A DNA stretch of 64,000 bases, taken from NCBI GenBank assembly GCA_902536385.1, contig CACAWY010000001.1:88458-152457 (forward strand). Reading direction: 5' to 3'. This document shows, piece after piece, positions 35,859-51,269 of this stretch; within the stretch, counting starts at the first letter, position 1, and each line of letters opens with the position of its first letter. This DNA comes from an uncultured Pelagibacteraceae bacterium (GTDB lineage Bacteria; Pseudomonadota; Alphaproteobacteria; Pelagibacterales; Pelagibacteraceae). The translations under genes were made by a program, and so were the position numbers. The notes under the pieces were generated by a model. It ran no database searches and was not told the DNA's origin. It worked only from the letters and a program-made list of their open reading frames with translations.

Positions 35859-37874
35859 ATGAAAACTGTATCTTATACAAACAAAAAATCTCTTCTAGAT
35901 AAACTAAAAGCTAAGTCAAAAAGAGAAGCCAATATATTTTTTTCTCTTTGCGAGAAAGACAGTGAAATAATCTCTACAAGAAGATTTAAAGATGTTTTGT
36001 TAAATTCAGGCTTAAAAGCTAAAGACAAAAGATTATATAATCTTTTTCAAAATTTAGATGCCCATGGTGATAGAATTGTATTTGAAGATTTTATAAATAT
36101 TATTCGAAGTTCGGAGTTGATTGTTGAAAAGGCACTTAGAGGTGAACTATCAATACCAGACTTTAGTTATTTTGCAAAAAATTTAGATAACATGTTTGAT
36201 GAGGTTAAAAAAATTAAATCAGGGGAATTGGCCTCTTATATCCCACCACTAGCTAATGTTGATCCAGACCAATTCGGTGTTGCTATTGTTACAACAGATG
36301 GTCAAATATATCAAAGAGGCGATAGTGAAGTTGATTTTTCAATTCAATCTATGTGTAAACCTTTTAATTACTGCTTTGCAATGGAAAAATTAGGACTAGA
36401 AAAAGTTCATCAACATGTTGGTCAAGAACCTTCAGGAAGACAATTTGATGATCTTACTTTATTAGCTAAAACTGCTGTCGGTCAACTTAATCGAATACCT
36501 TTTAATCCGATGGTCAATGCTGGCGCTATAATGACAGCAGGTCTAATAAGTCCAGAGGACTCTCACAGTCAAAGACTGAGATATATAAGACAACAATTTG
36601 GAAGATTAATAGGGTGGTCTCCAAAAGGTGAATTTAGTACTGAGTTACCTAGATTTAATAAAGATATGGCACGACAGGAAAATTTTACGGGATACAATAA
36701 TATTGCTATGGGTTATCTTTTGATGGCTACAGGTAATTTACCTCACACTAAAACTAAATTACATAACGACATTCATCCCGATCAAGATGAATTTGATTTT
36801 TATTCTGAACCTGCAGTCACAGAAGCTCTTAAGCTTTATTTTAGCATATGTTCATTAGAGATGACCTCAGTAAATTTTGCAACAGCTGCTGCTACACTTG
36901 CAAACAGTGGTGTTTGTCCTATTTCTCAAGATCGTGTGTTAAGCCAGAAAACAGTGAGAAACTGTTTACCTGTTTTACAAACCAGTGGAATGTATAATGC
37001 CAGTGGCACATTCTTTCAACAAGTGGGATTACCAGCAAAAAGTGGAGTAGGAGGAGGAGTTATATTGATAGTTCCAAGATTAATGGGAATATGTATTTTC
37101 TCTCCTCGTTTAGATAAACAAGGCAATAGTGTGAGAGGAATTGAAATGGCAAAAAAAATTACTTCAAAATATTTAGTTCATACTTTTGATGGCACAATGA
37201 CAGATACAGACCGTCTTGACCCAAAAATACCAATTTCAAAGTGGCGCGCTAATAGTTGTGGAGAAGCTATTTGGGCAGCAAGTAATGGCAATATTAGAAC
37301 ATTGGAACGACTGGTGAGTGAACAAAGAGATCTTCAAATTGGGGATTATGATATGAGAACACCTTTACATTTAGCATCAGCAGAAGGTCAGCTTGAAGCA
37401 GTTAAATTTTTACTTAAACAAGGTGTTAAACCAATCCCTGATCGTTGGGGAGGTTATGGTTATTTTGATGCAAAAAATAATAACCATAAAGATATCGTAA
37501 AAGAATACGAAAAACTTGATATTAATTATACTCAAGCATCACATCTAGTAGAAGACCCAAATGGAAAGACAGATAAAATGGCAATTTATGATGATGAATT
37601 GGCAGTAATTGAATTACTATTTGCTGCTTTTGAAAATAACGTTGAAGGTATTCGAACCTTAATTGCAAAAGGAGTACCTGTACATGCAGGAGACTATGAT
37701 TCTAGAACAGCTTTACATCTTGCAGCTGCTGAAGGTTGTTTGGAAGTAGTTGAGTACTTAGTCACGCATGGACACCCATTATTCGTTCGTGATAGATGGG
37801 GAGCAACACCTTTAGATGAGGCTAAAAGAGAGAAAAGAAAATCTGTATATAATTATCTTAAAGAATTTAGATAA
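35859..37874 (+). CDS. glsA: glutaminase with N-terminal EF-hand-like region and C-terminal ankyrin repeats (animal GLS-like architecture)
   Basis: Glutaminase core (FSIQSMCKPFNYCFAME, EPSGRQF, NPMVNAGAIM, SGVGGGVILIVP); N-term LFQNLDAHGDRIVFEDFINII; C-term ankyrin motifs DMRTPLHLASAEGQLEAVKFLLKQG and DSRTALHLAAAEGCLEVVEYLVTHG. Confidence 0.9.
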   Translation: MKTVSYTNKKSLLDKLKAKSKREANIFFSLCEKDSEIISTRRFKDVLLNSGLKAKDKRLYNLFQNLDAHGDRIVFEDFINIIRSSELIVEKALRGELSIPDFSYFAKNLDNMFDEVKKIKSGELASYIPPLANVDPDQFGVAIVTTDGQIYQRGDSEVDFSIQSMCKPFNYCFAMEKLGLEKVHQHVGQEPSGRQFDDLTLLAKTAVGQLNRIPFNPMVNAGAIMTAGLISPEDSHSQRLRYIRQQFGRLIGWSPKGEFSTELPRFNKDMARQENFTGYNNIAMGYLLMATGNLPHTKTKLHNDIHPDQDEFDFYSEPAVTEALKLYFSICSLEMTSVNFATAAATLANSGVCPISQDRVLSQKTVRNCLPVLQTSGMYNASGTFFQQVGLPAKSGVGGGVILIVPRLMGICIFSPRLDKQGNSVRGIEMAKKITSKYLVHTFDGTMTDTDRLDPKIPISKWRANSCGEAIWAASNGNIRTLERLVSEQRDLQIGDYDMRTPLHLASAEGQLEAVKFLLKQGVKPIPDRWGGYGYFDAKNNNHKDIVKEYEKLDINYTQASHLVEDPNGKTDKMAIYDDELAVIELLFAAFENNVEGIRTLIAKGVPVHAGDYDSRTALHLAAAEGCLEVVEYLVTHGHPLFVRDRWGATPLDEAKREKRKSVYNYLKEFR

Positions 37875-47261: not shown

Positions 47262-48143
47262 TTAATCTAACCACTCTTTAAATTTATCAAAATTTTCTTT
47301 AATATGTTTTGGTAAACTTTCATTTTTTATTTTTTCTAAATATTTAGTGGCTGTATGCTTCTTACCTCTTTTGCTAATACTGTGGTCGTAAATAATTCTT
47401 TTTTCTTTAATGATTTTTTCAATTTCTATTAATGTTAAATTACTTTCTTCAAATTCTAAATGGTGCAAATAATTTGAAAACTTATAAAAAATATCTTCTG
47501 GTTTTTTTATCGAGGTGTAATGCCAACCACCATTATTAATTATTTTTACATTTGAATACTTTTTGTTGGAAAACACTGTGTCAATTCTCCAAAAAGGGTA
47601 AACTTTTCCTTTTATATTTCTTAACCATTGAGGAGACACCAAATCCTTTTTTTTACATGCTCTTGTACCAAGCCATTTGAAGTTTGGTTGTCTTAAATTA
47701 AACTTGTAATAATAAATGTCCTGTTCAAATAAAGATATTTTTTTAGAATAATTAAATTTTTCAATATTGGGTATTTCGTCAAGATCACCAATTAAAATTA
47801 AAGACTCATCTTCTGCTTTCATTAAACCCCTATTAATTTCATTTCTTTGATGATTTTCCCTTAAAAGTGAATTATTTAATATTTTTTTATTTCTGGTCTC
47901 TAAATTGTCTTTATTATTCAATTCAAAAAGACCCTCGGGGACGTCATCGACTACTATATAGGTTATTTTATCTTTAAATTTCGAAAAGTTATCGATTTTG
48001 AAATTGAGCTTTTTTTCCTTTCCACTATGAAGGAATTTTGACTCAACAATGATAAATTTTTTTACAAATTTATTTAATGTATTTAGTCTCAAGTCTAGAA
48101 GCAAATCTTCATCGAAATACATAAAACAGTCATATATGTTCAT
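47262..48143 (-). CDS. glycosyltransferase family 17-like protein (beta-1,4-mannosyl-glycoprotein GlcNAc-transferase-like)
   Basis: IYDCFMYFDEDLLLDLRLNTLNKFVKKFIIVESKFLHSGKEK and LIGDLDEIPN...GWHYTSIKKPEDIFYKFSNYLHHLE resemble GT17. Confidence 0.82.
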   Translation of the reverse strand: MNIYDCFMYFDEDLLLDLRLNTLNKFVKKFIIVESKFLHSGKEKKLNFKIDNFSKFKDKITYIVVDDVPEGLFELNNKDNLETRNKKILNNSLLRENHQRNEINRGLMKAEDESLILIGDLDEIPNIEKFNYSKKISLFEQDIYYYKFNLRQPNFKWLGTRACKKKDLVSPQWLRNIKGKVYPFWRIDTVFSNKKYSNVKIINNGGWHYTSIKKPEDIFYKFSNYLHHLEFEESNLTLIEIEKIIKEKRIIYDHSISKRGKKHTATKYLEKIKNESLPKHIKENFDKFKEWLD

Positions 48144-48193: not shown

Positions 48194-50746
48194 ATGAAGA
48201 AAAAAATCATCATTACCGGCGGATTGGGATACATTGGAACAGAATTGTGCAAAATATACTCCGGTATAAGTTGGCATCATTCTATCACTGTTTTAGATAA
48301 TAGATTTATTTCTGAAAGAGTTAATCAAATAAGAAACTGGAACATGGAATTTATTCATGGGGATATACTAGATAAAGAAATAGTAAAAAAGATTTTCCAA
48401 GACGCAGACGTGGTGCACCATTTAGCGGGCATTACTGATGTTCCTAGAGTAAAAAGTGAAACTGATAATTCTTTAGATCAAAAAATAATATCTGTGGGAG
48501 TAGAAGGCACGCAAAATATTCTAAACTCGATTGGTAAAAATTGTAAAATAATTTTTCCTTCTACACATGTAGTTTTCGAAGGAACTGAGAAAGTTAAGTT
48601 AGATATAAAAGAAAATGAAATTTTAAAACCTCTTCTTTCCTACTCATCATCAAAAGCTACCAACGAAAAACAAATAAAAGACTCAGGTAAGAATTTTATA
48701 ATTCTTAGACTTGGCTCAGTTTATGGATATTCAAATGACTCTATGAGAATTGATATAATGCCTAACTTATTTTCAAAGATTGCCTCTCAAAACGGAACTT
48801 TGAAACTTTTTTCTGGAGGAAGGCAAATTAAAAGTTTAGTCCCATTAATTGATGTTGCTAGATGTTTTAAATTTATGGAGGAGAAAGTCGATATCAACCA
48901 AGAAATTTATAATGTTACAAAAGAAACTGTCACAGTCAAAGAAGTTGCACAAATTTGTAAAAAATATAATGGAAAGACTCAACTAAGAGAAACAAATGAT
49001 GAAATACCTAATTTAGGTTTTTCATTGTCTAATAAAAAATTATTGAATACGGGATTTAGATTTCTTTATAACTTGGATGAAAATATAAAAGAAATGATAA
49101 ATAAATGGTCTAAACAAAATTTAATAAAACAACTTGAATTTGTTAAAAAAGGAGCAAATATTTTTAAAGACCAAAGAGGCGAGATAAGCAATCATGAATT
49201 AACGGAACCAATTAATTTAATTGGATTAATTGACTCAAAAAAAGGAACTGTAAGGGCTAACCATTATCATCCGCAGCAAGAGCAAAAATGTTTATTTACT
49301 AAAGGACAAATAATTGAGGTATTCCAAGATATTATAAATCCAAATTCTCCAAAAGTGACACAAGTTGTAAATGCAGGTCAGCTATCAATAATAAAACCAA
49401 ATGTAGCTCACACAATGGTATTTAGTAAAGATACAACATTTTTAAATCTAGTAAGAGGTGAAAGAGACCATGACAATTATGGGATTACACATACAATCAA
49501 ACACACTATTGTAAATGAGAAAGAAAAAGAATTACTTTTAAAATATTATAAGTTTGAGTGTAGATCCTGTGGAAACGAAAACTTAAAAAGAGTAGTTTCT
49601 CTAGGATATCAACCTTTAGCAAATAATTTGCTTAAAAAGAAAAACGATGAATGCGAACTATATCCGCTTGAGGTAAATTTCTGTGAAAAATGTTACAATT
49701 GTCAATTATCAGTATCAGTGGATCCAAAAAAGATGTTTTCAAATTATTTGTATACATCTTCAACTTCAAGAGTATTTAGAAATCATTTTATTCAAGCAGC
49801 AAAAAAATATAAAAATGAGCTAAAATTAAATAAAAAAAAATCCTACATAATTGACATTGGCAGTAACGATGGAGTAGCTTTAAAACCTTTTTTAGAATTA
49901 GGTTTTAAAAAAGTTTTAGGAATAGAGCCAGCAAAAAATTTAGCAAAATTGGCTAATAAGAATAAGATAAAAACCTTTAATGGTTTCCTAGACACAAAAA
50001 ACTTGAAAAAAATTAAAAAAGGAGCGGATTTAATTTTAGCTTCCAATGTTTTTGCTCACTCTGACAAACTTCAGGAAATGGCTGAGTGCATGTTTAAACT
50101 TTTAAGCAAAAAAGGAACAATTATTATTGAAGTTCAATATCTAATGAATACATTAAAGGACCTAACATTTGATAATATTTATCATGAACACTATAACTAT
50201 TGGTCACTTACCTCTTTAATTAATTTTTTCAAAAAATTTGATAGCACAGTAGTTAAAGCAGAAAAAATTGATACCCACGGAGGTTCAATAAGAGTTTACA
50301 TAAAGAAAAACAAAAATACTAAAATCGACGCAAGTGTGAAATACTTATTGAAAGAAGAGGAAAAATTTGGAATTAAAAAATTTTCTACATACAAAAAATT
50401 CGGAGAAAAAGTTTACCAAATAAAAGAAAATGTAAAAAAAAATATTAAAAAACTTAAAAATAAAAATAACCAATTAATTGGATATGGCGCACCTGCGAAA
50501 GCAACTACTGCATTAAATTTTTTTGGTATATCGAAAGAATTAGATTTTATAGTAGAGGATAATAAATTAAAACATAATAAATTTATTCCAGGTGTAAAAA
50601 TTCCAATTAAAAAAAAAACTGAAATTAAAAATAAAAAAAATACTCTTATAGTTTTAGCCTGGAATTTTTACAAAAATATAAAAGAGAATAATTCTGAACT
50701 TTCAGAAAATTTTATAAATATTAAAGACTTAGAGATCAATAATTAG
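48194..50746 (+). CDS. three-domain fusion: NAD-dependent epimerase/dehydratase (SDR) + cupin + zinc-binding SAM C-methyltransferase
   Basis: Single 850-aa ORF: SDR GGLGYIGTELCKIYSG...VVHHLAGITDVPRV...SYSSSKATNE; cupin NHYHPQQEQKCLFTKGQIIEVFQD; methyltransferase CRSCGNENLKRVVSLGYQPLANNLL...DIGSNDGVALKPFLELG...DNIYHEHYNYWSL. Confidence 0.85.
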   Translation: MKKKIIITGGLGYIGTELCKIYSGISWHHSITVLDNRFISERVNQIRNWNMEFIHGDILDKEIVKKIFQDADVVHHLAGITDVPRVKSETDNSLDQKIISVGVEGTQNILNSIGKNCKIIFPSTHVVFEGTEKVKLDIKENEILKPLLSYSSSKATNEKQIKDSGKNFIILRLGSVYGYSNDSMRIDIMPNLFSKIASQNGTLKLFSGGRQIKSLVPLIDVARCFKFMEEKVDINQEIYNVTKETVTVKEVAQICKKYNGKTQLRETNDEIPNLGFSLSNKKLLNTGFRFLYNLDENIKEMINKWSKQNLIKQLEFVKKGANIFKDQRGEISNHELTEPINLIGLIDSKKGTVRANHYHPQQEQKCLFTKGQIIEVFQDIINPNSPKVTQVVNAGQLSIIKPNVAHTMVFSKDTTFLNLVRGERDHDNYGITHTIKHTIVNEKEKELLLKYYKFECRSCGNENLKRVVSLGYQPLANNLLKKKNDECELYPLEVNFCEKCYNCQLSVSVDPKKMFSNYLYTSSTSRVFRNHFIQAAKKYKNELKLNKKKSYIIDIGSNDGVALKPFLELGFKKVLGIEPAKNLAKLANKNKIKTFNGFLDTKNLKKIKKGADLILASNVFAHSDKLQEMAECMFKLLSKKGTIIIEVQYLMNTLKDLTFDNIYHEHYNYWSLTSLINFFKKFDSTVVKAEKIDTHGGSIRVYIKKNKNTKIDASVKYLLKEEEKFGIKKFSTYKKFGEKVYQIKENVKKNIKKLKNKNNQLIGYGAPAKATTALNFFGISKELDFIVEDNKLKHNKFIPGVKIPIKKKTEIKNKKNTLIVLAWNFYKNIKENNSELSENFINIKDLEINN

Positions 50747-51269
50747 TTACTAGATTTTTCCATATTTCAAAAATATTTCTTATACTTTCAAAAAAGTATT
50801 CTAAGTAATACTCTGTTCCAGGAAAATAAGAAATTATAAAACCTTGTGAAAAATATAAGATTCTAGATATAGCAACAGCTAAAAAAATAAATATTATTAA
50901 TGAGTTATAAAAGCCAAAAGATACTTTCTCTTTTCCAATTTTACCAATACTTTTTTTAGTTTGTGTTTCATCTAATTTAATCCCGTGTTTTTTTGCTAAA
51001 TATTCTGGTGAGTACAAACTGATTTCTCTTGTTTTTTTTGTAACAGTCCTTTTTATTTTTTTTGGTTTTTGTATTTTTTGTTGAATAGGCTGAGGTCTTG
51101 AAACCGCCTTTTTTGGACGAGCGATTGATTGTGTTTTTTCCACATCTCCCACAGGGAATTGTTTCCATTTTAATCCACAAAAACCACACTGAACCATTCT
51201 TCCAGCTGCAGGTATGGAATTATCTGGAAGCGTAAATTTCTTTTCACCACAGTTACAAGTTATAATCAT
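50736..51269 (-). CDS. MJ0042-type zinc-ribbon protein with one TM segment
   Basis: MIITCNCGEKKFTLPDNSIPAAGRMVQCGFCGLKWKQFPV, then low-complexity linker and C-terminal TM. Confidence 0.78.
   Translation of the reverse strand: MIITCNCGEKKFTLPDNSIPAAGRMVQCGFCGLKWKQFPVGDVEKTQSIARPKKAVSRPQPIQQKIQKPKKIKRTVTKKTREISLYSPEYLAKKHGIKLDETQTKKSIGKIGKEKVSFGFYNSLIIFIFLAVAISRILYFSQGFIISYFPGTEYYLEYFFESIRNIFEIWKNLVTNY

Follow-up and report, generated by a model that had tools for sequence, protein, structure and literature searches.

A fused SDR-cupin-C-methyltransferase protein shared by SAR11 bacteria and phage contigs, with a probable role in making a branched nucleotide sugar

What might a single bacterial protein be making when it carries, end to end in one chain, three kinds of sugar enzymes that are normally encoded separately, and is such a chain a genuine gene product at all? 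The question arises from a reading frame in an uncultured member of SAR11, a group that is among the most abundant bacteria of the ocean and whose surface sugars are little known. In the window, by which we mean the whole 64,000-nucleotide stretch of DNA analyzed here, this frame occupies positions 48194-50746 of the forward strand, starting with an ATG at 48194 and running through 850 codons without an internal stop to a TAG at 50744-50746. The chain comprises an SDR domain (aa 1-307), a cupin domain (about aa 308-450), and a TcaB9/MtmC-type sugar C-methyltransferase (aa 455-838). An earlier note on this DNA had described a single uninterrupted frame with three modules; its coordinates prove exact, and the Pfam matches and a structural model of the cupin agree with it on the modules and their placement, although the domain limits are now shifted slightly to those given here. 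Most likely, to judge from the sequence, this one SAR11 protein builds an unusual sugar with an extra methyl group.

An assembly join, a pseudogene, or a chance reading frame can be excluded because many SAR11 genomes, assembled independently of one another, contain full-length homologues with 62-88% identity. Across 61 related genomes searched at the protein level, the matches cover the full length at 75-88% identity and nearly all are free of stops. A scan of named genomes retained 80 loci, every one of them in the Pelagibacteraceae/Pelagibacterales, i.e., SAR11, and in a survey of the family, the source genus gave matches in 65 of the 78 genomes sampled (in some cases fragments only), with other genera also matching at identities down to 57-62%. 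Damaged copies are few (stops or frameshifts in L014, L191, G465, G482, and G624, and a few split viral copies), and across 116 aligned sequences (83 from SAR11 and 33 viral), each of the three domains keeps its catalytic residues near-invariant. The architecture, which it had been suggested should be sought in other genomes, is that of a conserved gene of several SAR11 genera, kept at full length there and on viral contigs. At most loci of the kind seen in the window, the gene is flanked by lon (with clpX) on one side and by the nuo operon on the other; in genus g6, its presence is patchy and its location different. The fusion was not found outside the Pelagibacteraceae among about 430 sampled proteobacterial genomes. 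The sampled alphaproteobacteria outside the family, like a set of 48 genomes from another proteobacterial class, yielded only stand-alone methyltransferase genes or cupin-methyltransferase gene pairs, and no further 850-aa frame turned up when 399 genomes of the phylum were searched with the cupin profile. An AlphaFold model of the whole chain has low confidence across the SDR and cupin, so the packing of the domains was not read from it.

The SDR domain (48194-49114, forward strand) matches the Pfam Epimerase family (PF01370; aa 5-241, 7.8e-24) and displays both signatures of the extended SDRs, namely, the GxxGxxG cofactor motif (G9, G12, and G15, within GGLGYIG) and the YxxxK motif (Y150 and K154). 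Its D35, an acidic residue that typically marks a preference for NAD over NADP, shows no variation in the 116 sequences. The earlier label for this domain was epimerase/dehydratase, and the second half of that label is unlikely: the acid residues of the 4,6-dehydratases, which follow the pattern S/T-D-E in RmlB or S-S-E in GMD, are absent from the fused SDRs, and residues 123-125 are instead S-T-H (S123 and T124 in the window) in nearly all SAR11 copies and all viral ones. The dehydratase dyad is present in the RmlB of the source genome and in the SDRs of the unfused operons considered below. Moreover, the nearest solved relative is a C4-dehydrogenase, the GDP-heptose enzyme Cj1427 of Campylobacter jejuni (6vo6; phmmer 4.1e-22, profile 5.5e-27). 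The two share an MR-x-D-x-x-x-N-x-F stretch but differ in that Cj1427 is a stand-alone protein, whereas the fused SDR is one of three domains, and their identity is low, at about a quarter. We therefore dropped the dehydratase reading, and the label should read putative C4 oxidoreductase. Cj1427 contains tightly bound NADH that is reoxidized by 2-oxoglutarate (PMC10680097). In a tree with unfused relatives, the fused SDRs form one group with a single stand-alone SDR inside it, encoded at 5651-6583 of L185 (genome G451); it is 61% identical to the fused SDR, its placement has modest support, and it is possibly a later split from the fusion.

The interval of about 140 residues between the SDR and the methyltransferase (49115-49543, forward strand) falls under every Pfam cut-off by sequence alone. 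Nevertheless, an AlphaFold model of the interval built on 20 diverse relatives adopts a cupin fold with a pLDDT of 88, and the nearest solved fold is the cupin of Staphylococcus aureus CapF (E 1.7e-8), which bears out the earlier assignment despite the subthreshold scores; freestanding homologues point the same way. The domain has the cupin fold with the metal-binding HxH and distal histidine of the CapF type, with H357, H359, and E363 lying in a G-x5-HxH-x3-E motif, H406 farther on, and a DxRG motif at 326-329. All 116 sequences preserve the three histidines, R354, and the DxRG motif, which recur in freestanding cupins; E363 is not fully invariant among the viral copies and is missing from the freestanding cupins. 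Membership in the RmlC 3,5-epimerases was considered and rejected, the PF00908 score of 16.9 bits falling short of the cut-off of 27. CapF resembles the fusion in carrying an SDR and, after it in the same chain, a cupin; it differs from the fusion in having no methyltransferase and in that its SDR is an NADPH-dependent reductase. In CapF, the two domains process a 4-keto nucleotide sugar one after the other, the cupin epimerizing with the help of Zn and the SDR reducing (PMC5393024). The cupin profile search also matched CapF-like proteins of about 370 aa with the cupin at the C terminus.

The third module had been described as a zinc-binding sugar C-methyltransferase with a CxxC...CxxC N terminus, and this identification is supported by three successive features, all on the forward strand. 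The zinc-binding part (aa 455-516, 49556-49741; PF08421, Methyltransf_13 at 456-515) contains the cysteine pairs C456/C459 and C497/C500, which are invariant in the 83 SAR11 sequences and partly lost in some viral copies. The SAM-binding core (aa 517-690, 49742-50263; PF13489, Methyltransf_23 at 536-688) bears the D554-x-GSNDG motif, H622, and Y663-x-E665-H666; these motif residues are invariant in the 116 sequences, and H622, Y663, E665, and H666 align with their counterparts in MtmC, KijD1, and TcaB9. The C-terminal domain (aa 694-838, 50273-50707) matches PF08484 (Methyltransf_14, 7.8e-41). Among the solved relatives, MtmC is the closest (E 4e-61), followed by KijD1 and TcaB9, so that the enzyme can be assigned to the 3-C-methyltransferase kind. 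These proteins share with the fused domain the methyltransferase fold, the zinc domain, the Y-x-E-H motif, and the histidine; however, they are stand-alone enzymes of antibiotic pathways that act on dTDP sugars, whereas here the methyltransferase is joined to an SDR and a cupin. In a tree with unfused relatives, the fused methyltransferases form one group. Methylation at C3 by enzymes of the TcaB9/TylC3 type requires a 4-ketone. A comparable step appears in the model of the virenose pathway of Coxiella burnetii, in which a TylCIII-type enzyme is predicted to methylate a 4-keto sugar at C-3 (PMC3539893); there, in contrast to the fusion, the genes are separate, and the pathway is a prediction rather than a biochemical result.

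That such activities are normally separate proteins, as had been asserted, is supported by the equivalents met here as separate, adjacent genes. Two genomes of the same bacterial family (loci L195 and L187) have an operon in which genes for an SDR, a cupin, and a methyltransferase, followed by a Gfo/Idh/MocA gene, stand in the order of the fusion's domains; unlike the fused SDR, the operon SDR is RmlB-like and retains the dehydratase acid dyad. In nine genomes of other alphaproteobacteria, a freestanding cupin gene directly precedes a methyltransferase gene on the same strand. Adjoining cupin and methyltransferase homologues also occur on Brachyspira hyodysenteriae plasmids (NZ_CP117022.1, 847-2283, and related ones), where one alignment piece spans residues 347-799 of the query. 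A SAR11 sugar cluster (L181, 3375-17475) has a close relative of Cj1427, an RmlC-like gene, and an aminotransferase gene beside an SDR-methyltransferase gene pair.

From the domains, motifs, conservation, unfused equivalents, and gene neighbors computed in this analysis, we infer the chemical steps, the substrate, and the glycan as follows. The earlier proposal of a multifunctional nucleotide-sugar enzyme is plausible, and the form of it to which we give the greater share of belief is a one-chain nucleotide-sugar C-methyl synthase that would make a 3-C-methyl sugar via a 4-keto intermediate, with the SDR probably making the ketone. The SDR would carry out oxidation and reduction at C4, most likely using bound NAD, like Cj1427, to generate the 4-ketone from a common nucleotide sugar, and maybe reducing it again after methylation. 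The CapF-type cupin would epimerize or enolize the carbon beside the ketone by means of a metal bound to H357, H359, and H406, with E363 a likely further ligand. Like TcaB9 and MtmC, the methyltransferase would transfer the methyl group of SAM to C3 of the 4-keto sugar in its nucleotide-linked form.

With so low an identity to Cj1427, the direction assigned to the C4 step depends on a distant resemblance, and it is here that the most serious alternative enters: a separate 4,6-dehydratase might make a 4-keto-6-deoxy sugar, which the cupin epimerizes and the methyltransferase methylates at C3, leaving the SDR only the final reduction at C4. CapF, with the same order of SDR and cupin, works in this way (PMC5393024). 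With rmlA, rmlB, and two gmd-like genes in the source genome, 4-keto sugars could come from elsewhere, and the unfused operons combine an RmlB-like dehydratase with a Gfo/Idh/MocA reductase whose step the fused SDR could replace. We regard this course of events as possible but the less probable. The fused SDR is nearer to Cj1427 than to a reductase, it has no dehydratase motif, and its acidic residue is of the NAD type, whereas CapF uses NADPH. Furthermore, the nearly complete genomes G467 (96%) and G034 (94%), both of which have the fusion, gave no hit for GDP-mannose 4,6-dehydratase (gmd); in the genus as a whole, hits for gmd were limited to 33 of 81 genomes, these being incomplete, and a 4,6-dehydratase-like gene lies within 5 kb in only 10 of 40 viral loci. 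These observations favor an SDR that makes the ketone; the preference is a modest one, the genomes surveyed being incomplete and the survey being one of gmd.

Two other divisions of labor appear much less probable. MtmC, the closest solved relative of the methyltransferase, is reported to be bifunctional and to reduce C4 as well; with PF08484 present and the SDR scoring against GalE models too, the fused methyltransferase might itself perform the reduction, and the SDR might be a plain C4 epimerase working at an earlier or later step. This is improbable in that the best match of the SDR is, by a wide margin, Cj1427, which is no 4-epimerase. The divergence of the cupin below the Pfam cut-offs could likewise be taken as a sign of a catalytically silent spacer or dimerization module between two working enzymes. 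Such a role is hard to reconcile with its invariant histidines, arginine, and DxRG motif, common also to freestanding cupins, or with a conservation equal to that of the methyltransferase, and we consider it the least probable of all.

Returning to the ketone-forming synthase, a proposed user of its product is encoded next door. Divergently adjacent to the fusion, at 47262-48143 of the reverse strand, lies a gene for a GT17-like glycosyltransferase of 293 aa (PF04724, 4.2e-11), which may move the product onto a surface glycan. This arrangement recurs in 61 of 77 SAR11 loci; of the 40 viral loci, 12 have the gene no more than 5 kb away, five of these directly upstream. None was seen at the non-fusion loci checked as a small control (about 40 loci, many spanning only 3.3 kb), and one is also divergently placed beside the unfused operon of L195.

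The surprising part of the finding is the link with phages. A scan of IMG/VR recovered 61 loci (L228-L288), about 40 of them with a full-length fusion, at 49-61% identity. A T4-type capsid family scored above its cut-off in 8 of 22 tested contigs, six of which also have a terminase; these two Pfam families were the only hallmarks used, and contigs without a match may still be viral. An uncultured 642-kb phage genome also carries the fusion (LR756502.1, 451119-453650), and in L257, its neighbors include genes for a phage ribonucleotide reductase and a DNA polymerase. PHROGs families gave no match to the methyltransferase part. Partial splits are seen on viral contigs L269 and L286, in the forms SDR-cupin plus methyltransferase and SDR plus cupin-methyltransferase. 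The SAR11 and viral copies fall on the two sides of one branch with a support of 100/100; this tree is unrooted and gives no direction of transfer between SAR11 and phage. One viral version (L263, 4995-8369) extends to 1124 aa with an extra C-terminal part resembling FkbM methyltransferases and is possibly a four-part fusion.

The published variable surface-polysaccharide regions of SAR11 lie at a place other than the lon-nuo locus (PMC2217521, PMC11898729). The presence of the gene at this locus in most genomes of several genera, outside the variable polysaccharide cluster, points to a shared, unusual branched sugar. As an enzyme, the fusion would offer a compact route to branched nucleotide sugars, and its occurrence on phage contigs near a GT17-like transferase makes the interplay of phage and host over surface sugars testable through one gene. 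More speculatively, and with far more doubt than belief, the fusion could be self-sufficient and redox-neutral: the SDR would take the C4 hydride of a common nucleotide sugar, the cupin and methyltransferase would use the transient ketone for fixing the stereochemistry and for methylation at C3, and the same bound NADH would reduce C4 again. On this view, phages would carry a one-gene kit that, with the GT17-like transferase, builds or mimics a host surface sugar in the course of infection. No biochemical characterization of the triple fusion was found in the open literature searched, most subscription journals lying outside that scope; as far as this search goes, no description exists of the three-domain architecture, of its distribution among SAR11, or of its occurrence on phage contigs, the parts being of known kinds.

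Two further genes of the window deserve mention. A conserved convergent gene on the reverse strand (50736-51269), encoding a small zinc-ribbon-like protein, shares an 11-base overlap with the 3' end of the fusion. Farther away, at 35859-37874, a glutaminase-like protein of 671 aa is encoded, with ankyrin-like repeats in its C-terminal part.
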